From assembly GCF_004843725.1 (NCBI RefSeq), contig NZ_CP039451.1, positions 1-64,000 on the forward strand: a stretch of DNA of 64,000 nucleotides, written 5' to 3'. This document shows, one piece after another, positions 29,389-55,601 of the stretch. The position numbers and the translations under genes were made by a program. The DNA comes from Psychroserpens sp. NJDZ02 (GTDB lineage: Bacteria; Bacteroidota; Bacteroidia; Flavobacteriales; Flavobacteriaceae). The first letter of the stretch is position 1. Each line of letters opens with the position of its first letter. The notes beneath the pieces are model-generated. The model was given only the letters and a program-made list of their open reading frames with translations. It was not told the DNA's origin and searched no databases.

Positions 29389-29781
29389 GTTAGCAACAAG
29401 TGTGTAAATCAGCAAACTAAGTTTTTAAGCCAAAGTTTATTGTCTATTTAAAAAGGGGAATTCAGGTTGGTACGCTCTGAAAAAAATATATTCTTTTACC
29501 ACATGTTTAATCAAAAAAGACAAACATATTAATTCTGAATTTTGGCTTGCCCGAAGTCGATTTTTGCATCGAAAATTTTAGCAAAAAGATCGCTTTTAGC
29601 TTTTTATAAAATAGCTAAACTCTGAGTTTGATTATAACAGAATCTAATCTTTACGGCTGAATATTATGAAAATGGATTTTCCCCGGTTTGTTTTTAAAGA
29701 CAACAACTTAGAAAACCAAAGGACAAAGCTGAATTTTAAAAAAACAGAAAGCTGAATAACGGAATTAAACCAGTTGCTAAC
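29389..29781 (+). other. Cassette 1, without a convincing ORF
   Basis: Bounded by GTTAGCAAC (29389-29397) and its exact reverse complement GTTGCTAAC (29773-29781). The interior is A/T-rich with several short inverted repeats, such as one near 29550-29575. The longest in-frame ATG reading is 29 codons (29666-29755), too short to call. It may be a non-coding or decayed cassette. Confidence 0.55.
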
Positions 29782-29911
29782 ACCGCGCATAATTAATATG
29801 CTTGGTTTTTATTGTCGTGAAATTCTGCCGAATTTCACTAATGGTTAGTTTTTATTTGCTAAATTAGTGGCTTAACGTCGCATACTAATCATGCACAAAC
29901 ACGTTGGCAAC
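29773..29911 (+). repeat. attC-like site 1
   Basis: Left arm AACACCGCGCATAATTAAT pairs with right arm ACTAATCATGCACAAACACG-TT. A central hairpin GTGAAATTC/GAATTTCAC is present. Ends are the core of cassette 1 (GTTGCTAAC) and the start of cassette 2 (GTTGGCAAC). Unoccupied by introns. Confidence 0.7.
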
Positions 29912-30009
29912 AATTAAAACAAATCAGTACAATTAAAGTTTCAGAACTAAAAACATTATTCGAAAGAGTTATTGAAAAACTCGAAACGGAATACGGTACT
30001 GATACAGAA

Positions 30010-30243
30010 ATGGAACTAAAAACTATAATTTACAGATTGATTCCAACCGAAAAGTGGAATAAGTTTGAGAAACCTGAAGATTGGTTTTCTGCATCTGAAA
30101 TTGACCAAGGTGACTTACAAGACGATGTAATGGAATTAAAAAAAATAATTTCTGATAATGAACGTATTGCCACATTTGTAGATTTTGATAGACTTGCAAG
30201 TGTTTTGAGAGAAATAAGCCAAGTTGAAAACCCAATTGAATAG
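30010..30243 (+). CDS. Cassette 2 protein A, unknown function, start uncertain
   Basis: A reading frame of 77 residues from the first ATG. The same frame stays open upstream through 29915 and into the attC-like palindrome without an ATG, and the codons there (STIKVSELKTLFERVIEKLETEYG) look coding, so the real protein is probably about 30 residues longer and uses a non-ATG start, or its 5' end was lost when the cassette formed. Soluble, acidic, with helical ends. I do not recognise a named family. It ends four bases before the next gene. Confidence 0.6.
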   Translation: MELKTIIYRLIPTEKWNKFEKPEDWFSASEIDQGDLQDDVMELKKIISDNERIATFVDFDRLASVLREISQVENPIE

Positions 30244-30247
30244 AGAA

Positions 30248-30745
30248 ATGGGAAATAAACGAAAAGGTCAATTGACAACAGATTCTGAATGGCATAAACA
30301 TTTAAGGAAAATTGGAAAACGATTTTTCTGGAAAGGAGAGCGAAATGCCGAAAAGAAAATGGTTAATGAAAACCTATCAGAAATTAATGATATGACTGAA
30401 ATTCCCTCACTTACTTTTGACGAATTATTTGATCTAATTGAAGAAAATCGTTTTGAAAACCCGACTGACAAAAAAATTGCAGAAAAAATATTTGAAGCAG
30501 AAAGGGATTGGAAAATTACATCTCAGGAATCTTTAAACGATTTTATAATTGTACTTGAAACTGAAACTGGAGGAACTGTGACTAAAACAAGTCTCAAAAA
30601 ACTCTTGAAAAAATATAATCGGAAAGATACTCAGTATGGTTGGGAAGCAGAAAGTGTTTGTTCTTTATTAGAAATTTTTGAACTGACTAAGGAAACTGAT
30701 TTGAGAAATATATTTAGACAATTGGCTGAAGATAAAGTAACATAA
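30248..30745 (+). CDS. Cassette 2 protein B, unknown function
   Basis: Charged soluble protein of 165 residues. ATG 30248 (MGNKRKGQL) is chosen because it lies four bases after the preceding stop; an in-frame upstream start at 30224 overlaps that gene. The first 45 residues are very basic, the rest acidic and helical (EAERDWKITSQESLNDFIIVLE). No domain recognised. It stops five bases before the cassette end core, leaving no room for a terminator. Confidence 0.65.
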   Translation: MGNKRKGQLTTDSEWHKHLRKIGKRFFWKGERNAEKKMVNENLSEINDMTEIPSLTFDELFDLIEENRFENPTDKKIAEKIFEAERDWKITSQESLNDFIIVLETETGGTVTKTSLKKLLKKYNRKDTQYGWEAESVCSLLEIFELTKETDLRNIFRQLAEDKVT

Positions 30746-30750
30746 AAACT

Positions 30751-30886
30751 ATTGCCAACACCGTGTATAATTAATGGCTGGTTCTCGCCTACTTACGAAA
30801 ATCCTCGCGGATTTTCTATTCAGTAATTATTTATTAAATTAGGTGCTTTAACACACCACTAATCATACACAAACACGTTGTATGCA
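30751..30886 (+). repeat. attC-like site 2
   Basis: Left arm AACACCGTGTATAATTAATG and right arm ACTAATCATACACAAACACG-TT; central hairpin GAAAATCCTCGCGGATTTTC. Cores: ATTGCCAAC (end of cassette 2) and GTTGTATGCA (start of cassette 3). Unoccupied. Confidence 0.75.
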
Positions 30887-30901
30887 ATTTAAACAAAAAC
30901 T

Positions 30902-31372
30902 ATGAATACCTTTCTAAATCAAGAAGAAGCGACCTTTTATCATATTACAACAATAGAAAATTGGGAGGGAATTAAAATAAATGGATTCCATTCTACAGAA
31001 GGAAAAATTTTCGTTTCAAGAGTTGGTGAATTACCAATTTTATTAGCAATTGCTTTAGAACAACTACCTGAAATTTATGATACTGAAACTATTGTATTTC
31101 TAAAATTCCCTCAAAAGTTAAATAATTTTACTTCCAAAGAAATAATACAAGATAAACAAGCAGGAGTAGAATGGACTCAACCATTCCAAAACATTATTTT
31201 AAGAAAAAACATACCTATTGAAAATATTGAAATAATGAATATGATAGATATTGGAAATAATGATGAAATAAGAACATCACGAATGACTTGGTTAACACAA
31301 ATAGCTAATTCAGGACAAAATAATTATAAGAATCATTGCATATTACAAAGAGCAAAAGAAATAAAATATTAA
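30902..31372 (+). CDS. Cassette 3 protein A, possibly ADP-ribosyltransferase-like
   Basis: Soluble protein of 156 residues. The start ATFYHITTIENWEGIKINGFHS followed by GKIFVSRVGE resembles the N-terminal core of ADP-ribosyltransferase-like folds (DarT, RES or KptA type), where a His-Tyr or Tyr-His pair binds NAD. The key C-terminal Glu motif is not certain, so this is only a resemblance. It is followed after six bases by a HEPN-like gene in the same cassette; the two may form a unit such as a toxin-antitoxin or defence pair. Confidence 0.55.
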   Translation: MNTFLNQEEATFYHITTIENWEGIKINGFHSTEGKIFVSRVGELPILLAIALEQLPEIYDTETIVFLKFPQKLNNFTSKEIIQDKQAGVEWTQPFQNIILRKNIPIENIEIMNMIDIGNNDEIRTSRMTWLTQIANSGQNNYKNHCILQRAKEIKY

Positions 31373-31378
31373 TAAGTA

Positions 31379-31927
31379 ATGACAGAGGAAACAAAAAAAT
31401 ATATAGAAACTTGGACAACCAAAATTTCATCATACAAAAATGATGATTTAGGCACGTTATTCGACAAATACACAGCTCTGTATACATTATACGATAGGCT
31501 TTACAATGAATCTTTCAAACAAATGAAAGAAAGTAATAATTTGACTAAATCTAGATACTCTGATTTCGAAAAAGCCACTAAATTAGTAGTTGATTTTAAT
31601 TCTGCTACTGATATAGTTTCCAAATTAAAAGAGAATAATAATTTTGAGGATATTAATATAATTGCAGATTTAATTAGAAACGATATTTTTCACATAAATC
31701 TTGCTGACGGAGTTTCAAAAAAAGATATTGACATTGAATTGATGAATAATTTAGAGAATGAGAATCCAACAATTAAAGCTCAAGCTTCTGTTAGTACGAT
31801 TTATAATGTTAGATGCAATATGCAACACGGAGAAAAACACTTTGAAGAGTCACAAAGAATGCTTCTTGAACCATTAATAAGAATATTAGAAACAATTGTG
31901 GAATTACAAAAAGAGAAATTAAAATAA
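31379..31927 (+). CDS. Cassette 3 protein B, HEPN-like all-alpha protein
   Basis: All-helical protein of 182 residues. Near the C-terminus, IYNVRCNMQHGEKHFEESQRM shows an R-x4-H arrangement typical of HEPN domains, which include RNases and their inactive relatives in toxin-antitoxin and defence systems. It lies six bases after the gene for the ART-like protein and shares its cassette. Its function is not established. Confidence 0.55.
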   Translation: MTEETKKYIETWTTKISSYKNDDLGTLFDKYTALYTLYDRLYNESFKQMKESNNLTKSRYSDFEKATKLVVDFNSATDIVSKLKENNNFEDINIIADLIRNDIFHINLADGVSKKDIDIELMNNLENENPTIKAQASVSTIYNVRCNMQHGEKHFEESQRMLLEPLIRILETIVELQKEKLK

Positions 31928-31945
31928 AAACTGCATACAACACCG

Positions 31946-33647
31946 GTAACCGTTGCACAACCCCTTAAAAAAGCATAAAAACAGCTTAAAATCTTTGATT
32001 TTAAGCTGTTTTTAATTTTAATATGCCATACTTTCTCTAAAATGCAAGTGGCTTAAAACATAGTATTCGAAGGCTTATTAGGTGGTTTTTGGTGCTTTTA
32101 ATAAAAGCAAGTAGTCCTGCTATACTTTCTGGTAAGTTTTTCATATATTTTAAATACTTTTTAAGATTATAGGCTGTTGCGGATAGATGCATACATTTAT
32201 TAGCTTGTTTAATCCCAAGGGTATTCACTTTTCCCATGCCTAAAAACTGGGTTAATGTACCAAATACAGGCTCTACCGTGCTTTGTCGTTTTCCTTTCAT
32301 ATAGCTTCCTTTTTTACTGTCAACTCGTGCTATATTCCGTAGGTATTCTGCGCGGTAATACGTTACGGAAAATGACTTTTCTTGTGCCGTTTTGCTTAAA
32401 CAAGCGCTTCGTATTGGGCAATCTATACAAAGTTTTTTTGAACCTCTATAGGCCTTCTTTTTGGTGTTGTTCTTCTTTTCGTAAAACACCTTTTTAAAGG
32501 GAATAATTTTCCCTTGAGGGCAGGTGTAGTGGTCTTCTTTTTCATTATAAATAAATTCATCTGGCCCTCCTTTAAAGGTGCCGTGTGGCGGAATGTAACT
32601 GGTAATATCCTGCTTTTCTAAAAAAGCATAATTCTCGCCACTACTGTAACCAGTATCCGCGAGACAGGTGTCTATGGTAAGACCAGATTGCCATAAGCGT
32701 CGTTTTACACGCAATACAATATCTGGTAAATGCTGACTGTCTTTGCCATCGGCATGATAGGCCTTGATATCACTTATTACATGATGTGCGGCATCTACCG
32801 TGAGTTGACTTGAATAGTTTAGCTTTCTTGCTTTTCCTGGTTTTACACTTATGCGAGCATCGGGATCGGTTGGACTATAATGCGTTTTATTACTCGTATA
32901 ACGTGAGCCTTTATTTCCTGCTCCAGGACGATGGTTTTGATCTTTTGACCATTTTTTGTTTCGGCTTTTTATCGCTTGTAATTCCTGACGGCTTGCTGAT
33001 AATTCTTGTTGCAATTTTGGGGCTTTATTAACTTTGGCTGATCGAAGTGGCACTGCTTTATCTCTATTGCTTATATGTCGTAAGGCGCGTAAATGAGCCT
33101 CTAAATCTTCCTCTGGTACTTTAAGCTCTAAACTATCCATCGAAGCGTTTGCTTTTACAGGTGCGGCGTCGATAACTTGGGTATGACCACTTACCATATG
33201 CATGTCTACGCACATTTTGAAAACATGAGTAAATAGATTTTCAAAAACTGACTCTGGGTACAGTTGATGTGTTCTACTTAACGTAGAATGCCATGGTAAT
33301 TCTTCATCGATATCATAGCCAAGAAAATACAGAATATCCAGTCGAAGACTACAATGTAACACCAATTTTCTATCGCTGGTGATATTCTCTAAATAACCAA
33401 CTAAACAGAATTTGAAAAACACCACGGGATCTAAACTTTTTTGTCCACAGTTTCCGTAATAGATTTTTGTTTGATTCCGTAGAAATTCTAAGTCTAAAAT
33501 TTCTGATAATCGTCTATAAAAATTGTCTTGGGGAACCCGACGACTCAACTGGAAATTGTTGAATAATTTCTCTTGATATATTTTTGTGCCTTGCATTATT
33601 AAATATACGAAATTTCTATATCTTTAACAACACGTTGTGCAACAGGC
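31946..33647 (-). mobile_element. IS1182-family insertion sequence
   Basis: About 1.70 kb. Ends carry inverted GTTGCACAAC (31952-31961 and, reversed, 33634-33643) within imperfect terminal repeats. The flanking ACACCG at 31940-31945 and 33648-33653 looks like a 6-bp target duplication. It sits in the left arm of attC-like site 3. Contains one full-length transposase gene. Confidence 0.82.
32037..33596 (-). CDS. IS1182-family transposase
   Basis: DDE transposase of 519 residues. N-terminal DUF772-type region (DPVVFFKFCLVGYLENITSDR), central DDE domain with TQVIDAAPVKANAS and LTVDAAHHVISDIK, TCLADTGYSSGENYAFLE, the cysteine cluster LCIDCPIRSACLS, and C-terminal STVEPVFGTLTQFLGMGKVN with the presumed catalytic Glu. 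Full length with no frameshift, so the element may be active. Confidence 0.95.
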   Translation of the reverse strand: MQGTKIYQEKLFNNFQLSRRVPQDNFYRRLSEILDLEFLRNQTKIYYGNCGQKSLDPVVFFKFCLVGYLENITSDRKLVLHCSLRLDILYFLGYDIDEELPWHSTLSRTHQLYPESVFENLFTHVFKMCVDMHMVSGHTQVIDAAPVKANASMDSLELKVPEEDLEAHLRALRHISNRDKAVPLRSAKVNKAPKLQQELSASRQELQAIKSRNKKWSKDQNHRPGAGNKGSRYTSNKTHYSPTDPDARISVKPGKARKLNYSSQLTVDAAHHVISDIKAYHADGKDSQHLPDIVLRVKRRLWQSGLTIDTCLADTGYSSGENYAFLEKQDITSYIPPHGTFKGGPDEFIYNEKEDHYTCPQGKIIPFKKVFYEKKNNTKKKAYRGSKKLCIDCPIRSACLSKTAQEKSFSVTYYRAEYLRNIARVDSKKGSYMKGKRQSTVEPVFGTLTQFLGMGKVNTLGIKQANKCMHLSATAYNLKKYLKYMKNLPESIAGLLAFIKSTKNHLISLRILCFKPLAF

Positions 33648-33804
33648 ACACCGTATATAATTTATTGCTGGCTTCTCGCCTACTTACGAAAGTCCTCGCG
33701 GACTTTCTTGGTCGGTAATTATTTACTAAATTAGTTGCTTAAACCACGCAACAAACCATATACGTATTCCAAGGTCAAAACCTAATTATTTAAAGACCTT
33801 TTTA

Positions 33805-34797
33805 CTATGCTGCAAATTTTTGTAATTCGACATAAGGTGTTCCTCTTTTTACCACTGCGAAAGCTCTTGACAAAATCTTATTTCTAACATTATTTAAAGC
33901 TACCAGTTTTGGTTTACCTTCTGCAACTTTTTTCTCGTAATACTGTTTTAATTCTTTATCGCACTGTATTGCGCTAACACTGGCAAGTGTTAAGAGTGTT
34001 TTCATTTTCCGGTCTCCTATCTTATGAATTCTGTTTTTCCGGTAAATACTGGTTCCTGAACTGTGCTCAAAAGGAGCTACACCACAATAACTTGAAAACT
34101 GACGCCAACTATCAAATCGCTTAAAATTGTTCGTGTGGTATAACAATTGACATGATAATATTAGACCAACCCCTTTTAAGGTATTTAAAAGTTGATAATT
34201 CTTTTCCAATAACTCATCACTTCGTATTAGTTTTTTAATACTTTGCTCAAGTGTTGTAATTTGTTTTGTTAGATAATGAATCATCTTTTTGACAATTATA
34301 CAACAATCATCAGTCGATGGACTACTAAGCAAGGTCTGCATTTCTTTAAGACTACTCATCTTACCTGTACGGTCTCGTACTAACTGTTCTCTAAAGGATA
34401 ACAAACGTCCTAACTCTTGAATATCTTGCGCTTTTGGACTACTTAGAGTCAACTCTTCTTTGTAAAGCCATGCATATCTCGCAATCATTGCGGAATCAAG
34501 CTGATCTGTTTTTCCTCTAACAATTCCAGAAGATCGTTTAATGGTCAAAGGACTTTCTTCTACATAATCTATGTTGTTTTCTGATAAATAAACACTAAGA
34601 TTTGTAGAGTAATGACCTGTATTCTCAAAACAGAAAAAACAGAGGTCTTTACCAAGGTGCTTTTCGACCCAAGATAATAGGGCTTTGTAACCTTTTGAAG
34701 TATTGGAAAACACACGGTGAACGCCTCTATTATAAATATGTGCATCAATTGTTAATTTAGATACATCAATACCGATAACATCTACATATTTTTTCAT
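33805..34797 (-). CDS. IS110-family DEDD transposase
   Basis: Transposase of 330 residues with the RuvC-like DEDD domain: VIGIDVSK (first Asp near residue 9), FCFENTGHYS (Glu), and RGKTDQLDSAMIARYA (Asp pair). The C-terminal Tnp20 domain has LNTLKGVGLILSCQLL and FSSYCGVAPFEHSSGTS with the presumed nucleophilic Ser. Intact reading frame. IS110 transposases are guided by a bridge RNA that pairs with target and donor. Confidence 0.95.
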   Translation of the reverse strand: MKKYVDVIGIDVSKLTIDAHIYNRGVHRVFSNTSKGYKALLSWVEKHLGKDLCFFCFENTGHYSTNLSVYLSENNIDYVEESPLTIKRSSGIVRGKTDQLDSAMIARYAWLYKEELTLSSPKAQDIQELGRLLSFREQLVRDRTGKMSSLKEMQTLLSSPSTDDCCIIVKKMIHYLTKQITTLEQSIKKLIRSDELLEKNYQLLNTLKGVGLILSCQLLYHTNNFKRFDSWRQFSSYCGVAPFEHSSGTSIYRKNRIHKIGDRKMKTLLTLASVSAIQCDKELKQYYEKKVAEGKPKLVALNNVRNKILSRAFAVVKRGTPYVELQKFAA

Positions 34798-35024
34798 ATT
34801 TTTAAATATTGTTCCTACTCAAAGAGGAATGATTAATAAATGTTGCTATGACTATCACCTTTATTAGGAAGTGATTCCTGGTATTCCAAATGGTCCTAAA
34901 GCAACCTAAGAAAGACAAGAGGACTTATACGTATAGTGGAACTATTATTCTAAACAACGTTCTAGTTCTCCTCTTGTTTCCTAGTAAAAGTAATAACTAC
35001 TTTTGTAATGAGTATAAAGTAAAG
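34798..35024 (-). ncRNA. Candidate bridge RNA region of the IS110 element
   Basis: Non-coding 227-base stretch between the element end and the transposase start. It contains paired segments, for example AGAGGAGAACTAG with CTAGTTCTCCTCT-like partners near 34960-34980 and AAGAGGACTTAT near 34917-34929. IS110-group elements transcribe a bridge RNA from this position. No structure was computed. Confidence 0.45.
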
Positions 35025-35043
35025 AACAACGTTGCCACCAATT

Positions 35044-36003
35044 ATGAAAAATACAGTATTTATCACATTTGTTAGTCTCTTTTTCATTAATTCAGTCTTT
35101 TCTCAAAACGAATCTATAGAAGCGTTAATTGAAAAAACTAATGAATTGAATCTTGATATGCGAGACTTAACCACTTTTGCGGAGGAAAACATTAAGGATA
35201 AAGAAGAATTAGCCAAATTTTTCTACTATTGGATTGGCTCGAATATTCAATATGATGAAGAGACATTTTTGAAAACTATAAATGGAGAAATAAGTAATGA
35301 AGATTTTTGGAAAAGCCAAGATGAATCTGTTGTTTATAATAACAGAACCGGAGTTTGCGCTGGTTATGCGAATCTATACAAGTGGTTTTTGGAATGGATC
35401 GATATAGAAACTGTTGTTGTATCTGGACATATTCGAGATTTAAGAAATCATTATGTTGAATTAGAAACTGATGATAGTTATAGACACGCTTGGAATGCTA
35501 TTAAATTAAACGATGAATGGATTCTAGTAGATACAACTTGGGGAACTTCTAAAGAAAAAGAAACCTCTGAATTCTATTTCAATATTAAACCCGAATTGTC
35601 AATAATTACGCATTATCCTGAAGATAGTAAATGGCAACTACTAAAAGAGCCTCTGAATCTTGAAGAATTTAATAAATCTCAATTTGTCAAACCATTTTGG
35701 TTTATGATAGGATTCACAGAAACACCAAAATTAATGTCTGACCAAGAATTTTACTATTTCACATTTCAAAATATTCCAGAAAACAAATGGTCAGTTGGTT
35801 TACAATTAAGCTCTGACAACATTAATTTTAATGGAATGAGTGATATTAAATTAATTGAACAAGATGGTCTTATTTATTTTCGATTTAGTAAGGATAAAAT
35901 ACCCAAAACAGCTTTTTTCAAAGTTAACTTAGTGAAATTTGAATATGTTGGAAATGACTATATGAAAACTGAACATAAAGATGTTATTAACTTTAAACTA
36001 TAA
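35044..36003 (+). CDS. Cassette 4: secreted transglutaminase-like protein
   Basis: Protein of 319 residues with a signal peptide ending near VFSQ. The transglutaminase-like core has the Cys in NRTGVCAGYANLYKWF, the His in YRHAWNAIKL and the Asp in WILVDTTWG, in the order of the catalytic triad of cysteine-protease-like transglutaminase domains. The C-terminal 130 residues form an uncharacterised beta-rich region. ATG 35044 is chosen; it lies 13 bases from the cassette's first G. Likely a periplasmic peptidase or cross-linking enzyme. Confidence 0.78.
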   Translation: MKNTVFITFVSLFFINSVFSQNESIEALIEKTNELNLDMRDLTTFAEENIKDKEELAKFFYYWIGSNIQYDEETFLKTINGEISNEDFWKSQDESVVYNNRTGVCAGYANLYKWFLEWIDIETVVVSGHIRDLRNHYVELETDDSYRHAWNAIKLNDEWILVDTTWGTSKEKETSEFYFNIKPELSIITHYPEDSKWQLLKEPLNLEEFNKSQFVKPFWFMIGFTETPKLMSDQEFYYFTFQNIPENKWSVGLQLSSDNINFNGMSDIKLIEQDGLIYFRFSKDKIPKTAFFKVNLVKFEYVGNDYMKTEHKDVINFKL

Positions 36004-36008
36004 GTAAC

Positions 36009-36210
36009 TGGTGGCAACACTGTATAAAAAACATAGGGCGTTTGTGATAAACTAAAAGGTCTGTGCTTATTAATGAAGTCCGCTAAATATAAAATTTGGC
36101 ATTTTAAGAGGAAAGATAAAAGCAAAATATTTATATTTAGCTAAGTAATTAACCGAAACAAAAGTGCTTATTTTATTGCCCTACATTTCTTATACTTAAC
36201 GTTGTGCATA
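36009..36210 (+). repeat. attC-like site 4 (long type)
   Basis: Longer palindrome, about 200 bp. Left arm AACACTGTATAAAAAACATA and right arm CTACATTTCTTATACTTAACGTT are near reverse complements; TTTAGCGGACTT-type internal arms also pair. Cores TGGTGGCAAC and GTTGTGCATA. Unoccupied. Confidence 0.65.
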
Positions 36211-36213
36211 ATT

Positions 36214-36834
36214 ATGAAAAACATCCAGATTTTAATAATATTTCTATTTTCAATTGGAATTTCAGCACAAAATATAACTGAAATCAACTCTGATTTAAAA
36301 CTATCTGATTCGCTAACTTACGAAACTGAAGTCCGAATTTATCAAGGTGGTGGAATAACTAATTATTCTTCACTTTTTAGAATGTTTAAAGACAAATCGG
36401 AGAAATGGACAGCGGAATTTTACGAGCATTACGCAAAAGTAAACGGACAAGCCGAATTACGGACTGAAAAGCAAACTCTAACATCGGAAAAAGATATGGA
36501 GTTTATATTTCAAAATTTTGTTCGGAGTCATATTTTAGACTTGCCAAGTTTGAGCGAAATACAATGGAAATTAGTAACTCGTGGAAATGTAGAAAAAGTA
36601 AAAAATAAATATCGAGGAAAAGAAATTGAGGAATACGAATTAATGAACAAACAGATTGCGATTTTGGACGGAGAAGGATTTAAAGTTAAGGTCAAAGGTT
36701 GGAATAGAGCGAATGAATTTGAATTTTCTAATCCCGACAGATATTTAAAACATTATCCCGAAATTGATGAATTAAATTATATATGTGAAATTTTGGACTT
36801 AATCCGGACTGAATTTCACATTTGGAAAAAATAA
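36214..36834 (+). CDS. Cassette 5: secreted protein of unknown function
   Basis: Protein of 206 residues with a signal peptide (MKNIQILIIFLFSIGISAQ). The mature part is mixed alpha/beta with many charged residues and no recognised domain (FRMFKDKSEKWTAEFYEHYAKV, ILDLPSLSEIQWKL). ATG 36214 is 13 bases from the cassette start. The stop is one base before the cassette end core, so no terminator exists within the cassette. Confidence 0.7.
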   Translation: MKNIQILIIFLFSIGISAQNITEINSDLKLSDSLTYETEVRIYQGGGITNYSSLFRMFKDKSEKWTAEFYEHYAKVNGQAELRTEKQTLTSEKDMEFIFQNFVRSHILDLPSLSEIQWKLVTRGNVEKVKNKYRGKEIEEYELMNKQIAILDGEGFKVKVKGWNRANEFEFSNPDRYLKHYPEIDELNYICEILDLIRTEFHIWKK

Positions 36835-36843
36835 CTATGCACA

Positions 36844-38828: not shown

Positions 38829-38831
38829 ATA

Positions 38832-43945: not shown

Positions 43946-43948
43946 ATT

Positions 43949-45886: not shown

Positions 45887-45921
45887 TAAAAGCCAAAGAG
45901 AAATCTAAGGGATTTGCTTCT

Positions 45922-46737: not shown

Positions 46738-46910
46738 TTCAATTTTAACCTGTAGCCATATTTCAGGACAAGACATACAAAAACATTGGGTTGTATTCAA
46801 TGAATAGATTGAGAGAATAAATATCTATTTTTATGTTTGAAATATTTCAGAATTTAGCTTTATAAAAAATCATTACCAGAAATAAAATTTAAACAACAAA
46901 AAGATAAATA

Positions 46911-47270: not shown

Positions 47271-47433
47271 TTAGAGCTATTAATCAAATAAAACGAATCT
47301 GTACATAAAAACAGAATCAAAATACTGAAGATTAAATTAAAAGGAAAATCTTAAAAAAAGAAAAGATAGATTGAAAAAATTAGAATTGGATTGAAAGCAA
47401 AAAAAGAATAGAAATCACAAGTCCTAAAAGCTA

Positions 47434-48029
47434 ATCGAGTAGACGGCTCCGACTAAAATAGCCGGAGTGCGCCTCTCACACCACCGTACATACGGGTCTC
47501 GTATACGGCGGTTCGTAAATCATCACGCCAAAGCTCTTTTCACCCTTGACACTATCTTCTAATTTAGGCATAGGCTACCACTAGTGCTCCTATGCGAATT
47601 TTGAAGAGAATCACGTTCAGTCCTTCCTTACTTGTGAGACCTTCTGAGGTATTGCCTCAACTCGTTTCCTGTAAGTACTATGACTTCTGCTGACTTCTCC
47701 ATATAGTCAACTCGTAACTTTGGAGACCTCCCCAGGTAATGGCATCCTCTTTCACTCAATCACTGCCGTATCTACATAGTTACCCTTTTGTTACTGTTTG
47801 GGCGTTACAATGATGTGCTTGCTTACCCGAATAACTATGCCTCTGTATACGATTTCTGTTCGTCAGTACCGAGTTTTGTAGTCTCGCTTCCTTCAGATGT
47901 AACCTCGCGATTACCACCCTTGCGACTTACTAATGCTTCAAGACGTTACTCCTGCGCATAAGGGACTTGCACCCTCTAGATTAATTATTTACCTTTCCGT
48001 AAATAAAAAGATGCCCATGCTGGGCACAC
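47434..48029 (-). mobile_element. ORF-less group II intron copy 5 in attC-like site 9
   Basis: 596 bp, near-identical to copy 2. Removal joins AAAAGCTA to ACAATGTATA. This site is of the long palindrome type, so the intron accepts different site subfamilies. Confidence 0.83.
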
Positions 48030-48220
48030 ACAATGTATAAAAAACATAGGGCATTTGTGTAAACTCCAAAGGTCTGTGTTTATTTATGAAGTCCGCCAAA
48101 TATAAAATTTGACGTTTTCAAGCAAAAAATAAAAGCAAAATGTTATATTTGGCTAAGTGCCAAACCAAAACGTAGTGCCTTTTAACCGCCCTACGTTCCT
48201 TATACTAAACGTTGTACCAC
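48030..48220 (+). repeat. attC-like site 9 (long type; intron-occupied)
   Basis: ACAATGTATAAAAAACATAG pairs with CTACGTTCCTTATACTAAACG-TT; internal arms AAATATAAAATTTGACG and TGTTATATTTGG also pair loosely. Close relative of site 4. Next start GTTGTACCAC. Confidence 0.65.
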
Positions 48221-48235
48221 ATTAAAACTAGGTTG

Positions 48236-48673
48236 ATGAAAATATTGAAACAACTACTAATTTTATTTTTGATTCTCTTATTTCAGTCTTGTGCTACTAA
48301 ATATAAATTGGGAATGAATAAATCGAATTATAAATATGGGAACATTATTGAATTGAAAATTAATGAAGATGTAACTATTGATAATTCTCTGTTGATTAAA
48401 TTAACATATTTTACTCATAAACGACCACGTATTGGAGGTTCAACACAAGCAACAGCTACTTTAATTGTTACTAAAGACAATACACTTGGAGAAATAAATC
48501 TTTCTGTGCGTGGAATTCAAGGAAAATCTGAATCTGAAGATGGACTTTCAGAAGAGGAACGTTTTAGACCAGTATTGTGGAAAGGATACAAATTTCAATT
48601 AGCAGAAAGATTTGGATCTAATTATGGAGAATCTATTAGAGTTATTATTTTAAAGGACAAAAAATATAACTAA
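48236..48673 (+). CDS. Cassette 10: small lipoprotein of unknown function
   Basis: 145 residues with a lipoprotein signal peptide (LILLFQSC, lipid-modified Cys near residue 19). The mature part has beta strands (IIELKINEDVTIDNSLLIKLTYFTHKRPRIGGSTQATATLIV). No family recognised. ATG 48236 (MKILKQLL) is chosen over in-frame TTG further upstream. The cassette ends with GTGGTACA at 48702. Confidence 0.7.
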   Translation: MKILKQLLILFLILLFQSCATKYKLGMNKSNYKYGNIIELKINEDVTIDNSLLIKLTYFTHKRPRIGGSTQATATLIVTKDNTLGEINLSVRGIQGKSESEDGLSEEERFRPVLWKGYKFQLAERFGSNYGESIRVIILKDKKYN

Positions 48674-48709
48674 AATAATAATATTAAGAATTAACCAAAA
48701 CGTGGTACA

Positions 48710-49352
48710 ATCGAGTAGACGGCTCCGACTAAAATAGCCGGAGTGCGCCTCTCACACCACCGTACATACGTAACTACGTTGGTCCTTTCGTCTCTATCGT
48801 TATTAACAATAGAACTCAGGAACGTATACGGCGGTTCGTAAATCATCACGCCAAAGCTCTTTTCACCCTTGACACTATCTTCTAATTTAGGCATAGGCTA
48901 CCACTAGTGCTCCTATGCGAATTTTGAAGAGAATTACGTTCAGTCCTTCCTTACTTGTGAGACCTTCTGAGGTATTGCCTCAACTCGTTTCCTGTAAGTA
49001 CTATGACTTCTGCTGACTTCTCCATATAGTCAACTCGTAACTTTGGAGACCTCCCCAGGTAATGGCATCCTCTTTCACTCAATCACTGCCGTATCTACAT
49101 AATTACCCTTTTGTTACTGTTTGGGCGTTACAATGATGTGCTTGCTTACCCGAATAACTATGCCTCTGTATACGATTTCTGTTCGTCAGTACCGAGTTTT
49201 GTAGTCTCGCTTCCTTCAGATGTAACCTCGCGATTACCACCCTTGCGACTTACTAATGCTTCAAGACGTTACTCCTGCGCATAAGGGACTTGCACCCTCT
49301 AGATTAATTATTTACCTTTCCGTAAATTAAAAGATGCCCATGCTGGGCACAC
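48710..49352 (-). mobile_element. ORF-less group II intron copy 6, with an insert in domain V
   Basis: 643 bp: the 596-bp form plus about 47 bases. The extra sequence (48771-48822) replaces the apical loop of the domain V hairpin and itself contains a small hairpin (CTATCGTTA/TAACAATAG). The same insert, diverged, is in the intron remnant at 55217-55268. Removal of the intron joins GTGGTACA to ACAAGGGC. Confidence 0.8.
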
Positions 49353-49547
49353 ACAAGGGCTATAATTAATACGAGTTTTGGTGCTTAACCTAAAGTTTAG
49401 TGCTTTTAACAAAGTCCGCCAAATCTTTCTGACTTGGCTTTATAAAGAAAAAGGTAAAACAAAATAAAAAGTTTTGGCTAAGTGCTTAATCGGAAGTTTA
49501 TTACTTTTAATTCCCGTACTAATCATAGCCGAAACGTTAGTTGTAAT
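49353..49547 (+). repeat. attC-like site 10 (third type; intron-occupied)
   Basis: ACAAGGGCTATAATTAATAC pairs with GTACTAATCATAGCCGAAACG-TT; the interior has paired GCCAAATC/GATTTGGC-like arms. About 200 bp in total. Next start GTTAGTTGTAAT. Confidence 0.65.
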
Positions 49548-49564
49548 TAACAAAAACAAAAAAA

Positions 49565-50125
49565 ATGAATAAAAAAATTTTGAGCGCTAAACATTGGCAA
49601 TTATTTACATTAATGTTTATTATACCTATAGTATTTATTGTATTTGGTGAAAATATAATTTCAAACACTTTATCAAAAGAAACCTTTATTTACTTAAAAA
49701 AGTTTTTTCAAGTATTAAATATTGTGGTTTTATTTAGTTGGATTTGGGAAATTTTTACAACATTTCAAAATGGAATCATTGAAAAAACAAAAAACAATAG
49801 ATTTAAAATATTCTTCTTTATATCTCTAATATATCTTATTATTTATAATGTTTTTTTAGAAAATATTATTGGTAGAATCGAACATAATCAAAAGAGAATA
49901 CTTTTATCTTTACATATATTATCGATATTTGGAATAATTCATTCAATTTATTTTGCTGCTAAATCATTCAAGACATATAAATTAAATAAAAGGACTAAAT
50001 TTATGGATTTTATTGGTGATTTTTTTCTCCTTTTAATATACCCTATTGGAATTTGGATTATGCAACCTAAAATAAATGACCTGTTGAAAAAAACTACAGC
50101 TAATCGAGTAGACGGCTCCGACTAA
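49565..50125 (+). CDS. Cassette 11: integral membrane protein, C-terminus altered by intron
   Basis: Membrane protein with about five hydrophobic helices (about 14-29, 49-63, 80-99, 112-130, 148-165). There is no stop codon before the cassette end core ACTACAGCTA (50093-50102), so the frame runs 22 bases into the antisense intron (intron starts at 50103) and ends at 50125 with residues NRVDGSD. Without the intron it would continue into the attC-like palindrome. Conserved part ends near MQPKINDLLKK. No family recognised. Confidence 0.6.
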   Translation: MNKKILSAKHWQLFTLMFIIPIVFIVFGENIISNTLSKETFIYLKKFFQVLNIVVLFSWIWEIFTTFQNGIIEKTKNNRFKIFFFISLIYLIIYNVFLENIIGRIEHNQKRILLSLHILSIFGIIHSIYFAAKSFKTYKLNKRTKFMDFIGDFFLLLIYPIGIWIMQPKINDLLKKTTANRVDGSD

Positions 50126-50723
50126 AATAGCCGGAGTGCGCCTCTCACACCACCGTACATACGGGTCTCGTATACGGCGGTTCGTAAATCATCACGCCAA
50201 AGCTCTTTTCACCCTTGACACTATCTTCTAATTTAGGCATAGGCTACCACTAGTGCTCCTATGCGAATTTTGAAGAGAATTACGTTCAGTCCTTCCTTAC
50301 TTGTGAGACCTTCTGAGGTATTGCCTCAACTCGTTTCCTGTAAGTACTATGACTTCTGCTGACTTCTCCATATAGTCAACTCGTAACTTTGGAGACCTCC
50401 CCAGGTAATGGCATCCTCTTTCACTCAATCACTGCCGTATCTACATAGTTACCCTTTTGTTACTGTTTGGGCGTTACAATGATGTGCTTGCTTACCCGAA
50501 TAACCATGCCTCTGTATACGATTTCTGTTTAGTTTATACTGAGCGCAGTCGAAGTATCAGTACCGAGTTTTGTAGTCTCGCTTCCTTCAGATGTAACCTC
50601 GCGATTACCACCCTTGCGACTTACTAATGCTTCAAGACGTTACTCCTGCGCATAAGGGACTTGCACCCTCTAGATTAATTATTTACCTTTCCGTAAATTA
50701 AAAGATGCCCATGCTGGGCACAC
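50103..50723 (-). mobile_element. ORF-less group II intron copy 7, with a REP-like insertion
   Basis: 621 bp: the 596-bp form plus 25 bases. At about 50529-50556 the normal CTGTTCGTCAGT is interrupted by a segment containing GAGCGCAGTCGAAG, the same arm as in the hairpin array at 19.4-20.8 kb. Removal joins CAGCTA to ACAATGTATATA. Confidence 0.8.
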
Positions 50724-50918
50724 ACAATGTATATAATTAAACCGGGTTTAGTGCTTAATCAAAAGTTTTGCGTATACTTACTAAATCCGTCAAATCATTT
50801 TGATTTGACTTTAGTACACAAAAAAATAAAGGCAAACAAAATGCTTTGCCTCGTGCTAAATTGAAAGTACTCTGACTTTCTATTCCCGCACTAAATCATA
50901 TACTAAACGTTAGCGATA
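50724..50918 (+). repeat. attC-like site 11 (third type; intron-occupied)
   Basis: ACAATGTATATAATTAAACC opens the site; CACTAAATCATATACTAAACG-TT closes it, with internal arms such as AAATCATTTTGATTTG. Next start GTTAGCGATA. Confidence 0.62.
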
Positions 50919-50933
50919 ATACGAACATAAATT

Positions 50934-52004
50934 ATGAAAAGAACATTAATATTTTTTTTAATAATCTCAAATAACCTTTTTTCGCAAAATTTCTCTTGTG
51001 AAGATAAAGTCTCTAAACATTTAATTGATAAAGTTGAAAAACATGAATCCATTAATTTGATTCCCTACTTCTCAAAAACCGAAAATAAATGGGGTTTTTT
51101 TGATAAAAAAACAAGAAAAATAGTGACAAGCCCAATATTAAATAGAGTTCACTTTTTCAAACCTAATTTGAGATTATTTTATGAAATGAATAATGGGAAT
51201 CAAGAAAATGGATGCGATGCTAATATTTTGGGTTCTAAAGAAAACTATAAAATTGAATTCATTAAACAAAGCGACTATCAAGTCTATGATGTTGAGAGCG
51301 AAACAACACCTAAAATAAATTATGAAAAATTAATTAATGATGAGATTTCTGGTTTTGAGGTAAATGATAATAACAAGATAATAGGATTTAACTCTAAGTT
51401 TTATAACAAAAAAACAAAGAAATCAATTTTAAAAACTTGGGCAATCAAATTTAAAAATAATTATTATGCTATAGTAACAGAAAAAATAAACGATAAGAAC
51501 AAATATTCTATAGTTAATCAACAAGGAGATGAAATGGAAGGGTTTGAAAATTTATCAAATTTTCCAATAAAGGTATTTCATTACAAAGACTCAGATGATA
51601 TATGGTTTTATTTTAGAACTGAAGCTGGAAAATATAAATTTAGGTCTCTCTTGAAAAACAAAGAAATCAGTGGTCTTTTTGATAGACCATTAAATCTAAA
51701 TAACTACGCAAAGACAATAGGCTTTGCAATACTAAAGACTAACGGAAAATATGGATTATTGGATTTAACAACTATGAGCTGGAGATTAAAACCAAAAAAG
51801 AAAAATGATTTTGTGTCATTAAATTATTCATCTTCTGAAGTACTATCTGAAAACTATATAAACGATAGGAATAATATTAATTTTAATAAAGAAATTCCGA
51901 TTGAAATAATAAAACAGAATAGATTGAAATCAAATGTTTACATTCAAAATTCCAAAAGAGAGTTTTACAATTTAAAGAGAAAGATAATCAAACCAAAAAA
52001 ATAA
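50934..52004 (+). CDS. Cassette 12: secreted WG-repeat-like protein
   Basis: 356 residues with a signal peptide (LIFFLIISNNLFSQ). Two or three segments resemble WG repeats: ENKWGFFDKKTRKIV (about 46-60), NKYSIVNQQGDEM and GKYGLLDLTTMSW. The rest is Lys/Asn-rich with no recognised domain. The stop is four bases before the cassette end core TATCGCTAAC. Function unknown. Confidence 0.68.
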   Translation: MKRTLIFFLIISNNLFSQNFSCEDKVSKHLIDKVEKHESINLIPYFSKTENKWGFFDKKTRKIVTSPILNRVHFFKPNLRLFYEMNNGNQENGCDANILGSKENYKIEFIKQSDYQVYDVESETTPKINYEKLINDEISGFEVNDNNKIIGFNSKFYNKKTKKSILKTWAIKFKNNYYAIVTEKINDKNKYSIVNQQGDEMEGFENLSNFPIKVFHYKDSDDIWFYFRTEAGKYKFRSLLKNKEISGLFDRPLNLNNYAKTIGFAILKTNGKYGLLDLTTMSWRLKPKKKNDFVSLNYSSSEVLSENYINDRNNINFNKEIPIEIIKQNRLKSNVYIQNSKREFYNLKRKIIKPKK

Positions 52005-52008
52005 ATAC

Positions 52009-52146
52009 TATCGCTAACAAGGTATAAAAATAATAATGGTTTAATTGCTAAAACGAAGATGGATTTTATAAACTCAAACGATAGTAGCGAACTGAAAAGC
52101 AAATGTATAAATCCGCTACTAATCATACACAAGACCGTTGGTGGTA
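52009..52146 (+). repeat. attC-like site 12 (unoccupied)
   Basis: TATCGCTAAC, then AAGGTATAAAAATAATAATG, pairing imperfectly with CTACTAATCATACACAAGACCG-TT; internal arms ATGGATTTTATAAA and AATGTATAAATCC also pair. More diverged than the others and not invaded by an intron. Next start GTTGGTGGTA. Confidence 0.6.
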
Positions 52147-52208
52147 ATTTGGGAAGAGTTGTGTTCCAAATAAAACTTCATTCATTAATAACAATAAAAG
52201 TAAAACAA

Positions 52209-53720
52209 ATGACATTAAGATTAATATTACTTTTTATTTTCATTCTTCCTTTAAAAATTAATGCTCAAGCGGAGTCAAAAAACATTGACCAATTTGTAAA
52301 TAAACTAAATAATAAAGTCCCGAAACTACTAAACGACTTTAATGTTCCAGGGGCAGCAATTGCTATTATAGAAAATGGTAAAATAATCCTAAAGAAAGGT
52401 TATGGCTGTTCTAATATTGACAATAAAACCAAAGTTAATATTACTACTGGTTTTAATATTGGGTCTATTTCCAAAACTGTTACTGCATGGGGCATCATGA
52501 AACTAGTTCAAGAAGGTAAAATTGACCTTGATGCGCCTGCTGAAAAATATCTTACTAGGTGGCATTTACCAGAATCAGAGTTTGATTCAAATAAAGTTAC
52601 CATAAGAAGAATCCTAAGTCATACTGCTGGATTATCGCTACACGGATACCCAGGATGGTCACCAAAAGACAAATTACCCACCATTGAAGAATCTTTAAAT
52701 GGCAAAAACAATGGACCTGGACGTGTGGAAATTATCATGGAACCTGGAACAAAATGGAAATATTCTGGAGGAGGCTATTCAATTCTTCAGCTCATAATTG
52801 AGGAAGTTACCAAACAAAAATTTGAAGATTACATGCTAAAAGAAATACTTCAACCTTTAGGCATGAAAAATACTAGTTTTACTATTGATGATAAGATAAT
52901 GAGTATATCGTCCCGAGAATATGATATGTTTGGAGAAGAAATCGATTTTGAACTTTTTACAGCGAAAGCAGCTGCGGGTTTACATACAAATATCGAAGAT
53001 TTTACAAAATTTGCATTAGCAAGCCTATATAAAAATAAACAATATTCTCAAAATATTCTATCAGCTAATTATCTAGAACAGATGATGCTACCAGCTCCTG
53101 CTTCAAATGGTAGCTATGGTTTAGGGTATCAAGTAGAATCAATGCCAAAGCATTCAATGGTTTTATATGGTCACGGAGGTGCTAATACTGGTTGGCAAGC
53201 TTTATTTATGGTTAATCCTGCTACTGATGATGGTTTTGTCATGTTCACTAACGGGGGTTCTGGAGGTAAGGTCTATGGGCAAATAATTTGCGAATGGATG
53301 AACTGGGTAACTAATGAAGAATCATTAGACAATTGCGCAGTCTTACCTTCTATAGCGAATAAAATAAAAAAAATAATAGATATCAATGGTGTCAAAGATA
53401 TTCAGAAACAATACTTCGAATTAAAAAATAACCAATCAGGTAAATACAGCATTTCAGAGGAGCAATTAAACGAATTAGGATATTATTATTTAAGTAAAGA
53501 GAATATTGACTTCTCACTCGCTGTGTTTGAAATATATGTCGCAGCATTCCCCAATTCTTCCAATGCGTATGATAGCTATGGTGAAGCTCTTTTAAAAAAA
53601 GGTGAAAAGAAAAAAGCAATTGAAAATTATAAAAAATCTATAAAACTAAATCCTGAGAATAATAATGGATTACAAGTATTAAAAGGATTAGGAATAACTC
53701 TAGAAAATGTAAAACAATAA
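52209..53720 (+). CDS. Cassette 13: secreted beta-lactamase-family serine hydrolase with TPR tail
   Basis: 503 residues. ATG 52209 (MTLRLILLFIFILPLKINAQ) starts a clear signal peptide; an in-frame start at 52059 would lie inside the attC-like site. The class C/penicillin-binding-protein-like domain has the S-x-x-K motif in GSISKTV, the Tyr motif in WKYSGGGYS and HGGAN in place of KTG. The C-terminal 110 residues are TPR-like (YYYLSKENIDFSLAVFEIYV, GEKKKAIENYKKSIKLNP). Esterase or peptidase activity in the periplasm is likely; beta-lactam hydrolysis is not implied. Confidence 0.88.
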   Translation: MTLRLILLFIFILPLKINAQAESKNIDQFVNKLNNKVPKLLNDFNVPGAAIAIIENGKIILKKGYGCSNIDNKTKVNITTGFNIGSISKTVTAWGIMKLVQEGKIDLDAPAEKYLTRWHLPESEFDSNKVTIRRILSHTAGLSLHGYPGWSPKDKLPTIEESLNGKNNGPGRVEIIMEPGTKWKYSGGGYSILQLIIEEVTKQKFEDYMLKEILQPLGMKNTSFTIDDKIMSISSREYDMFGEEIDFELFTAKAAAGLHTNIEDFTKFALASLYKNKQYSQNILSANYLEQMMLPAPASNGSYGLGYQVESMPKHSMVLYGHGGANTGWQALFMVNPATDDGFVMFTNGGSGGKVYGQIICEWMNWVTNEESLDNCAVLPSIANKIKKIIDINGVKDIQKQYFELKNNQSGKYSISEEQLNELGYYYLSKENIDFSLAVFEIYVAAFPNSSNAYDSYGEALLKKGEKKKAIENYKKSIKLNPENNNGLQVLKGLGITLENVKQ

Positions 53721-53769
53721 AAAAACTACCACCAACAAAGTACTGTGTTAAAAAATAAGTAAAATCTCA

Positions 53770-53922
53770 TTAATTTTTCACTAACGTACTTTTATATTCT
53801 TTATCAAATATTAACCCTGATTTAGTAATAGCAAAGGCTTGTTTTAATAACTTATTACAAACCGCTATTAAGGCTAGTTTTTTGCTTTTTCCTTTGGCTA
53901 CTAATCGCTCATAAATAGCATT
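53770..53922 (-). pseudogene. Remnant of an IS110-family transposase (C-terminal end)
   Basis: On the minus strand the last 50 codons read NAIYERLVAKGKSKKLALI, then AVCNKLLKQAFAITKSG and a stop at 53770. This matches the C-terminal tail of IS110-type transposases but differs from the intact element at 33.8-34.8 kb. The rest of the gene is gone; it abuts an intron fragment on its upstream side. Confidence 0.8.
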
Positions 53923-54082
53923 CAGACAAAACCTCACGTTTTTCAGCCTTGCTACTTACTAATACTTCAATAAGCCTGTCCTAAGCGTAGCCGATGGATT
54001 ACGACTGCGCATAAGAAACTTGCACCATGTAGATTAATTATTTACCTTTCCGCAAATAAAAAGACGCTCATGCTGGGCACAA
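53923..54082 (-). mobile_element. Group II intron remnant (5' part)
   Basis: Sequence similar to the first 150 bases of the introns (ends GGGCACA on the + strand), with many substitutions and a 34-base insertion near 53972-54005 that contains CCTAAGCGTAGCCGATGGA, a REP-like hairpin arm. It lacks domains IV-VI and cannot splice. Confidence 0.75.
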
Positions 54083-54327
54083 ACAACACCTATAATTAAT
54101 AAGGGTTTTAGTGCTTAATCCAAAGTTTAGAACTTTTAACCAAGTCCGCAAAATCTTTTGATTTGGCTTTAGAACAAAAAAGATAAAACAAAATAAAAAG
54201 TTTTGGTTAAGTGCTTAATCGCAAATTAATTTCTTTTAATTCCCGTACTAATCATAGCCAAGACGTTGGTAACAATACGATATTATTCTCTAAACTCAAT
54301 TTCCTAAAGCTAAATACTAATTATTTT

Positions 54328-55095
54328 ATGAAACGTTATTTACGAATTTTAAAGCCTACAAAGGTTTACAGCAGGCACGAATTATCTTCAAGTCATTTAA
54401 CAACATTAGAACCAGATACTATAATTTCTTTTAATAGAGAAAAAAGAAGAGATAAAGTAAACTGGATGGAAATTTACATTGAAGATAAAAAAGAAGCATA
54501 TATAAAAAAGGACCACGATAATTTTTATAAATGTCAAAATGTAATACTGGATGATGATTCGGTTCAAGGCTTTAGTGTTATTTATAAAACAAGTAAAAAA
54601 CCATTATTTGATTCCCTTTTTCACCAAAAAGACACTCTAACTGAAATAGAAAATATAGGTATTATCAAAGCTGAAAGTATTGAAGATGCTAAGGAAGGTA
54701 AAAAAATAGATATTCAATTAGCATATAATAAAGATTTGATACAAGTGGATCCTTTCGTTCTAAAAAAGAAAGAGCATTTTTATATAATTAATAATGTCTT
54801 TGGTAAAAAATATATTTTTATAGAAATCGATAATCTTAAAGGCAAAAAAGGTTTTATACTAAAAAAAACTAATTATACAAAAAAAGGAGACGAATGGATG
54901 AAACCAGTTATTGTTATAATAATGATTCTAGTTGTTGGTGGATTGATTTTAATTGGCTTATCTGCTGGCTGGCTTGCTATTAGTGGCTTAATGCTTATTC
55001 CCGCTGTTATTGTTGCTATTGTTGCTATTGTCGTGTTACAAATAATATTAATGATAATAAAAGGCATTTTTAATATCATTAGAAAACGTTTTTAA
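54328..55095 (+). CDS. Cassette 14: protein with C-terminal membrane helices, unknown function
   Basis: 255 residues. ATG 54328 (MKRYLRILKPTKVYS) is preferred; an in-frame start at 54211 lies in the attC-like site. The N-terminal 180 residues are charged and cytoplasmic in appearance, with an SH3-like start (YLRILKPTKVYSRHELSSSHLTTLEPDTIISF). Two or three strong hydrophobic helices fill about 190-248 (VIVIIMILVVGGLILIGL and following), then a basic RKRF end. Family not recognised. Confidence 0.62.
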   Translation: MKRYLRILKPTKVYSRHELSSSHLTTLEPDTIISFNREKRRDKVNWMEIYIEDKKEAYIKKDHDNFYKCQNVILDDDSVQGFSVIYKTSKKPLFDSLFHQKDTLTEIENIGIIKAESIEDAKEGKKIDIQLAYNKDLIQVDPFVLKKKEHFYIINNVFGKKYIFIEIDNLKGKKGFILKKTNYTKKGDEWMKPVIVIIMILVVGGLILIGLSAGWLAISGLMLIPAVIVAIVAIVVLQIILMIIKGIFNIIRKRF

Positions 55096-55158
55096 ATTTA
55101 TATCAAAATGATCAAGAATTATGAATTGATTTCAAACTAACACAAAGCACTATTAACA

Positions 55159-55490
55159 ATCGAATATACGACTCCGACTAAAATAGCCGGAGTGCGCCTC
55201 TCACACCACACGTACGTAACTACGTTGGTCCTTTCGTCCCTATTGCTACTAGCAATACAACTCAGGAACGTATACGGCGGTTAACCAAATGGAAGTTCGC
55301 GTATTATTAATATAATCTAACAAAGGCTTATACCCTTTTCGATTAAGCCTAGAAATTGTGATAGCAGGCTCTAAAATAAGATTTTAAACCACTCCACAAC
55401 CTCCCATCCTGGTTCTATTCCAAGCATAAGCTTGTCCTGGCTCTATACCTAACTGAATCAGATTTTTACGCTTAACTTTTAGATACATTT
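55159..55490 (-). mobile_element. Group II intron remnant (3' part) with RT fragment
   Basis: Degenerate copy at the right end of cassette 14. Domains V and VI are recognisable with substitutions (ATCGAATATACGACTCCG, GGAGTGCGCCTCTCACACC), and the domain V loop holds the same insert as copy 6 (55217-55268). About 200 bases of RT C-terminus follow (55285-55490), with frameshifts and stops. The 5' part is missing. Confidence 0.8.
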
Positions 55491-55601
55491 TTTTTAAAAA
55501 TATCTCATGTTAATACAAATGAATATAAACAAGAACCCGAAGTATTAAAATCCGAGTGTGTTTTTTTTACTAAATTAGCTTCTTAAACCTCAAAAAACAC
55601 A
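55491..55601 (+). repeat. Degenerate right half of attC-like site 14, end of the array
   Basis: TTTACTAAATTAGCTTCTTAAACC (starting near 55567) resembles the right-arm interior of the first-type sites (TACTAAATTAGTTGCTTAAACC), but the arm and the GTT core are not recognisable. This is taken as the right boundary of the array. Its left core would be TATTAACA at 55151-55158. Confidence 0.45.

Follow-up and report, generated by a model that had tools for sequence, protein, structure and literature searches.

Can a run of gene cassettes be an integron when no integrase gene adjoins it? The question is raised by a 64,000-nucleotide stretch of the chromosome of Psychroserpens sp. NJDZ02, a member of the Flavobacteriaceae (NZ_CP039451.1, positions 1 to 64,000; hereafter the window), in which a first-pass annotation made from the letters alone had recognized an integron-like array of 14 cassettes. 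The array very probably belongs to a distinct type of integron, in which attI platforms are dispersed over the chromosome and one recombinase would serve them in trans. The evidence supports an array that works like an integron but whose candidate integrase is without the additional domain, one of the features that define the canonical family.

Reading of the region base by base and a repeat search bore out fourteen segments in one direction between 29.4 and 55.2 kb, each spanning GTT to AAC and parted from the next by attC-like palindromes, which lie close behind the cassette genes' stop codons. The cassettes start at 29389, 29903, 30877, 35031, 36201, 38819, 40346, 43936, 45462, 48211, 49536, 50909, 52137, and 54265. 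An attI-like site stands at the head of the array (29310..29391, plus strand); it ends in ATATAACTA|GTT and has TACTTTAG upstream. The last clear R'' lies at 53736 and a degenerate R'' at 55157. The uniform gene direction claimed at first holds for the cassettes, while the seven complete group II introns and three insertion sequence (IS) genes or gene pairs inside the array point either way. Only two classes of palindrome length were seen, 131-135 and 193-197 nt, in place of the three proposed.

The first 10 and last 10 bases are complementary at 9 or 10 positions in 13 of the 14 cassettes, so that the claim of matched ends stands for all except cassette 14, whose 3' end is degenerate (5/10). 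For this comparison the boundaries had been placed manually, in knowledge of the match. An unbiased test took its boundaries from a covariance model, which holds only the GTT/AAC core and leaves the other seven bases free. It covered the 87 testable cassettes out of 152 attC matches, the others being without a full-length neighbour or exact core bases. Own ends were complementary at 9 or 10 of 10 positions in 78 of the 87, compared with 4 of 87 reaching 9/10 or better when the start of the next cassette was used as a control. Among cassettes of up to 2 kb, 72 of 75 had matching ends (shuffled mean 7.3, maximum 15 in 2000 shuffles), and six of the nine misses were intervals above 2 kb, where a site may have been overlooked.

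The attC sites take the form RYYYAAC-ACAnnG-TATAA..TTGC ... GCAACT..TTATAC-nnnCG-GTT, an imperfect inverted repeat R''-L''-L'-R' with a bottom-strand fold. The covariance model (A4/R1) was built from 47 sites, 3 from the window and 44 from 20 other loci. Applied to the window as the first-pass annotation had proposed, it gave 13 matches at E up to 1, all within the array and on the minus strand, the weakest at 0.00086. In 27 loci of the source genome and three related genomes, 152 matches were found (E 0.01), with no locus carrying both strands, and the cassettes of each array lie in one direction. The L stem covaries, with 92.5% of cells paired against 64.5% after shuffling and 156 double changes against 42. 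Changes on both sides occur in 13 of 14 pairs, and pairing drops to 34-42% when the alignment is slid by one column. Columns 28/128 form G-U on the bottom strand in 44 of the 47 sites.

For strand statistics 81 sites were collected, of which six from Rufibacter were excluded beforehand, leaving 75. Mismatches in the top-strand arms were A.C in 247 cases and G.T in 69, and per site A.C was in excess in 66, fewer in 3, and tied in 6. An A.C mismatch on the top strand means a G.T wobble on the bottom strand. The bottom-strand fold expected at the outset was also found by DNA folding energy, which gave the bottom strand as more stable in 73 of the 75 sites.

The absence of an integrase stands for the window. 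On the same chromosome, a single contig of 4.32 Mb, a gene for a 393-aa tyrosine recombinase lies 1.19 Mb away (1217661-1218842), beside a second array (array 2), and is taken here as the candidate integrase. It is followed directly by an 85-base site that is 96% identical to the one opening the window array (site at 1.2188 Mb), and then by array 2, whose first cassette carries a type II restriction-modification system. Gene and cassettes share one orientation. An attI-like motif, TTATCCnG..TATATTnGT..ATATAACnA|GTT, follows the enzyme in 21 of the 21 closest loci, its own included, many of which lie at contig ends; a variant site occurs at two loci (L052 and L058). As regards a Pc promoter driving the first cassettes, as in canonical integrons, a TAnnTTTG-like motif is conserved in attI; it would correspond to the Bacteroidetes -7 element.

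An attI probe found 21 sites in the source genome (E 0.01), while the attC model, with 150 of 6430 candidates scored, found 83 matches at E 0.1, including 72 below 0.001. The 83 sites fall into 18 clusters, of which two consist of a single site, so that the search for further arrays with the same palindromes, also proposed at first, was answered in the positive. For 16 of the 21 attI-like sites an attC lies within 6 kb in array orientation and for none in the wrong orientation, against a random mean of 0.7. Many integrase-less attI copies share an extra leader of about 65 bases with TACGTAGTTCTACGTATTG, a comparison that rests on 16 of 20 loci. The leader, with the palindromic TACGTAgttcTACGTA, precedes copies such as those at 2532537 and 3244878.

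Cassette turnover was evident from relatives sharing the photolyase locus that flanks the array. In G005 the photolyase gene and attI are 93% identical and the far flank is 94% identical over 7.5 kb, and between them only attC, intron, and IS pieces are common with the window (matches of at least 100 bases); no window cassette was found there. G002 carries an array with 10 attC matches and no window cassette at the same locus. In G003 and G001 the photolyase gene lies within 0.5-1 kb of sequence like the window from 59.4 kb on, with no array between, and in G008 only the photolyase is common with the locus. Variation in the presence of cassettes, on which the integron reading had been made to depend, is therefore seen as the same flanks with other cassettes, and this reading is supported both by the differing cassettes at one site and by the bottom-strand fold in 73 of 75 sites.

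Over 514 bases, cassette 1 and its attC recur without a difference in another array at ~960.7 kb, 0.93 Mb off. To the left of the identical bases the two copies diverge exactly before GTT, one running into attI and the other into an attC, and the copy probably represents the trace left by a cassette insertion at attI. Cassette 2 of array 2 likewise has a 99.7% copy at 971.5 kb. Judged from sequence, the cassette turnover and the copy of cassette 1 agree with entry at attI and excision by the integrase.

The first-pass annotation had advised a search for an IntI-type recombinase with the additional domain, and none was found over the cut-off of the IntI profile TIGR02249 in the complete source genome. 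The profile matches three genes, all below cut-off. The recombinase beside array 2 covers it only at 1-178 and 238-314, and the other two (308 and 315 aa) are Xer-like by their C-terminal motif. Just one gene of the integrase family was found in the source genome, at 1.2177 Mb. The 393-aa enzyme contains the domains Phage_integrase and Phage_int_SAM_4, and R231, K256, H320, R323, H346, and Y355, presumably the catalytic set, are invariant across 26 family sequences. The distance from the lysine box to HxLRH was 64 or 65 residues in 36 of 39 family rows (69 in one, two not read) and 106 residues in 19 of 19 IntI rows. The insert of the additional domain is absent from the enzyme in an alignment with four IntI, and the alignment with the IntI of 2a3v breaks at query 278/297 versus 182/244. 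The enzyme has instead about 95 N-terminal residues that are absent from IntI, with a weak fold match to the HARP or XPB damage-recognition domain.

NF040815 (recomb_XerA_Arch) scores 203 bits for the enzyme against a cut-off of 220, and the NCBI label "site-specific tyrosine recombinase/integron integrase" on some members is the description of NF040815. The nearest named proteins come from Olleya, an affinity that would by itself place the host probably in that genus. Archaeal XerA/Xer recombinases resolve dimers at a double-stranded site, and they are not known to have cassette arrays.

Relatives of the integrase were found at E 1e-55 in 47 of 99 genomes. attC sites (E 0.001) occurred in 57 of 60 Flavobacteriaceae, the source included, and in 12 of 39 genomes of the other families of the order; at most 35 sites were scored per genome, and 8 of the 99 genomes had contributed sequences to the model. 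In 17 longer stretches, a greedy search starting from attI yielded chains of at least two matched cassettes in seven; nine gave no cassette, and the remaining one a single cassette. Among 55 loci (54 of 80 named loci and one plasmid), chains of three or more cassettes were found downstream of the enzyme at nine and upstream at three. Two of the latter adjoin recombinases with a longer distance from K to HxLRH (106 at L128 and 87 at L156), and neither gave an attC model match. Among named cases, chain lengths were 10 in Algibacter onchidii, 6 in Seonamhaeicola aphaedonensis, 5 in Winogradskyella ursingii, and 3 in Flavobacterium aciduliphilum.

The attC model matched in all of 23 family loci, of which 14 had been picked for a chain already seen (the plasmid included) and nine had earlier shown none or one cassette. 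All 124 matches (E 0.01), which include training sites of the model, are found downstream of the enzyme with the orientation of the array. The loci L095, L105, and L110 of Cyclobacteriaceae gave two matches each, one of them outside the training set. Integrase, attI, and array are linked in many genera. The Chryseobacterium plasmid NZ_CP041688 (L079, 7959-16996) carries the integrase, four attC matches, an IS110 element, and a group II intron, and is possibly a mobile form of the system. A Rufibacter locus (L103) gave two weak model matches; an array of attC-like sites of 72-73 nt stands there at 14745-17419, 3.6 kb after a Xer-like enzyme that likewise has no additional domain. A long array with attCs about 355 bp apart was observed in the congener G001 (C2:1496-1576 kb; L225 and L226 up to 1527.8 kb), a spacing that would suit a tandem repeat of small cassettes.

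The array could also be an ordinary cluster of attC sites lacking integron-integrases (CALIN), debris of a canonical integron whose true IntI has been lost or lies on a plasmid or in another cell, with the Xer-like gene a bystander. Its 13 attC sites without a neighbouring integrase exceed the two or more by which a CALIN is recognized, and a phylum sample of 395 genomes included 105 with canonical IntI over cut-off, one of them in the same class. These matches show that the search was able to detect IntI; the count is far above what passages of the published surveys suggest. Yet no IntI was over cut-off in 249 Flavobacteriaceae (a search in which no control matched), whereas 57 of 60 carry these attCs. 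In many genera the gene immediately upstream of the arrays belongs to this recombinase family, and the identical cassette copy at attI is found in a complete genome without IntI. Unlike a CALIN, the window array has an attI-like site, and another part of the chromosome carries a candidate integrase next to the same attI. This origin is considered improbable.

Given a still lower probability is the proposal that homologous recombination between like attCs, together with attC-targeting introns and IS, shuffles the arrays with no cassette recombinase at all. The attCs are indeed alike within a genome, and introns, IS110, and other IS stand in or beside many of them. Shuffling leaves unexplained, however, that a cassette matches its own end without matching its neighbour, that the attI/attC breakpoint falls exactly at GTT between unrelated left flanks, and that the stem covaries across genera. 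Static gene clusters with palindromic spacers, either terminators or elements like miniature inverted-repeat transposable elements (MITEs), would fit the closeness of the palindromes to stop codons and are considered extremely unlikely in view of cassette turnover between flanks of 93-94% identity, cassette copies across arrays, and wobble pairs that lie on the bottom strand and not in the sense of transcription.

Several observations weigh against an integron served by a single recombinase. The attCs are interrelated, and the strand statistics are not independent draws. In the source genome, 5 of 21 attI-like sites are without an attC within 6 kb, 4 of 18 attC clusters are without a detected attI, and two further Xer-like genes are present. 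The searched attI motif was not seen in the more distant L046, L047, and L048, which nonetheless have attC matches after the enzyme (only one in L046, E 0.0015). Two-cassette chains were found downstream at 10 and upstream at 15 of the 55 loci; since they are no commoner downstream, weight was placed only on longer chains and on model matches. The exact copy of cassette 1 could in principle stem from gene conversion. Finally, G008, a single-contig relative with 30 attC matches, has no integrase match at E 1e-55, and the linkage of integrase and attC is therefore not strict; arrays may outlive or outrun the integrase gene, or the gene may have diverged.

Under the favoured interpretation of a distinct integron type, the window array would belong to a chromosomal integron-like system with about 18 attC clusters, in which the single 393-aa recombinase would serve many attI platforms in trans. 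The bottom strand of attC would form a hairpin by pairing of R'' with R' and L'' with L', and the recombinase would cut it at G|TT and join it to attI. New cassettes would enter at position 1, with the array growing downstream. Excision would join the two ends of a cassette, and its own ends would be complementary for this reason. Without the I2 helix the enzyme must recognize the folded site by other means, and the extra N-terminal domain is the first candidate for this role. The bolder proposal, that the capture of cassettes from folded single strands arose, or was re-engineered, in Bacteroidota without I2 when a Xer/XerA-like recombinase gained an N-terminal domain (possibly of HARP or XPB fold) able to read hairpin attCs, with one such enzyme feeding about twenty platforms, seems to us evenly poised.

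The system shares with canonical integrons, sedentary chromosomal ones included, an attI next to the integrase gene, cassettes in one direction, the attC order R''-L''-L'-R', the better fold of the bottom strand, the GTT breakpoint, and a cassette at position 1 behind attI. In contrast, its integrase is without the additional domain and carries its own N-terminal domain, the integrase gene runs in the direction of its array, and 21 attI-like sites fall to one integrase. The match of own ends also reaches 10 bases, compared with 7 in the published consensus box GTTRRRY.

Within the window, the cassettes lie on the plus strand and all attCs, placed by the covariance model, on the minus strand. 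Cassette 1 (29389..29781; attC 29779..29905, 74.2 bits) is followed by cassette 2, encoding a protein without assigned function (29903..30759; attC 30757..30879, 110.1 bits), and cassette 3 (30877..31941) with two open reading frames (ORFs) of 156 and 182 aa and no Pfam match. The attC of cassette 3 is interrupted by an IS element (31946..33640, minus strand, limits approximate) with an ORF of 519 aa (32037-33596), which we assume to be IS1182-like. The same IS also interrupts an attC in array 2 (~1226945-1228640) with near-identical junctions. The body of the attC (33648..33762, 75.4 bits, model positions 11-124) is split between L' and R' by an element placed in the IS110 family by NCBIfam (33763..35025, minus strand, right limit approximate; transposase 33805-34797). 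Cassette 4 (35031..36018) encodes a transglutaminase-like protein according to protein searches, and its attC (36016..36203) is of the long type.

In cassettes 5 to 11, a group II intron on the minus strand, delimited by Rfam and intron ends, lies in R'' between cassette and attC. Cassette 5 (36201..36843) is followed by an intron with a reverse transcriptase/maturase gene (36844..38698) and its attC (38698..38821), and cassette 6 (38819..39630) by an ORF-less intron (39631..40226) and an attC of 104.4 bits (40226..40348). Cassette 7 (40346..41962) encodes 480 aa with a C-terminal part that is weakly nuclease-like by protein search; in its gene (40497-41939) this region matches a Card1 endonuclease domain below cut-off. 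An intron with an ORF (41963..43813) and an attC (43813..43938) follow. The remaining four introns are without an ORF and stand at 44744..45339, 47434..48029, 48710..49352, and 50103..50723. They belong to cassettes 8 (43936..44743; attC 45339..45464), 9 (45462..47433; attC 48029..48213), 10 (48211..48709; attC 49352..49538), and 11 (49536..50102; attC 50723..50911), respectively, the last three with attCs of the long type. Cassette 12 (50909..52018; attC 52016..52139) precedes cassette 13 (52137..53736), which encodes a TPR-bearing serine hydrolase from the beta-lactamase fold family; resistance is not implied. The body of its attC (54082..54267) is damaged by inserted material and an intron remnant. 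Cassette 14 (54265..55157) has the degenerate 3' end, and the array ends in a group II intron remnant (55159..55500, minus strand) recognized by repeat search and intron ends.

The first 1.3 kb of cassette 9 is an IS element (45462-46783), presumably IS3-like, with five further long copies of at least 87% identity at other array loci (L211, L216, L218, L219, and L222). In the window and some other arrays it starts at or within ~15 bases of the cassette start, as if it targeted attC or travelled as a cassette. The IS110 junction sequence of cassette 3 recurred in 6 of the 9 partial attC matches inspected out of 11, five in the source genome and one in G005. Elements of this kind figure in papers on IS1111-attC. 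A transposase of the IS110 family at a fixed point of attC is shared with those elements, whereas the attC type and the host differ, and the present element is placed only as IS110-family.

All seven complete introns of the window match Rfam RF02001 (E 5e-20 or better), which we take to be the IIC type. Two of them carry an ORF of 426 aa, one identified as reverse transcriptase/maturase, and five are ORF-less. One insertion point in R'' was found for all 12 introns with both ends located in the window array and array 2, and in 21 array loci of the source genome a pattern search located 33 intron 5' ends, every one of them followed by the attC junction. The attC-targeting IIC introns described in passages of PMC7923331 lie on the bottom strand, in the R'' box at TTGT/T and antisense to the cassettes. 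The introns here agree in being antisense to the cassettes and in their bottom-strand insertion site, which lies in R'' after TGT|T, and differ in their occurrence in Flavobacteriaceae, in many copies, with 5 of 7 in the window ORF-less.

Bacteroidota are among the phyla listed with integrons in a passage of PMC8618304. According to parts of PMC9024848, only In0 had at first been seen in Bacteroidetes, and Salinibacter later gave a complete integron. No description of the flavobacterial system reported here was found in the searches made, which covered open-access papers. The additional domain is called defining for IntI in a passage of PMC9668308. Passages of PMC7790495 call I2 necessary and absent from other proteins; integron integrases are held there to have arisen by gaining I2, which is needed for cassette capture and confers single-strand recombination, with its causality left without direct proof because IntI1 is destroyed by removal of I2. 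An integron-like system found in nature with an integrase that has no I2 makes this question of causality testable. Searches keyed to IntI with the additional domain would presumably miss such integrases. The occurrence of the attCs in 57 of 60 sampled genomes suggests that almost all Flavobacteriaceae have such a system, and it is also suggested that many platforms may depend on a single integrase.

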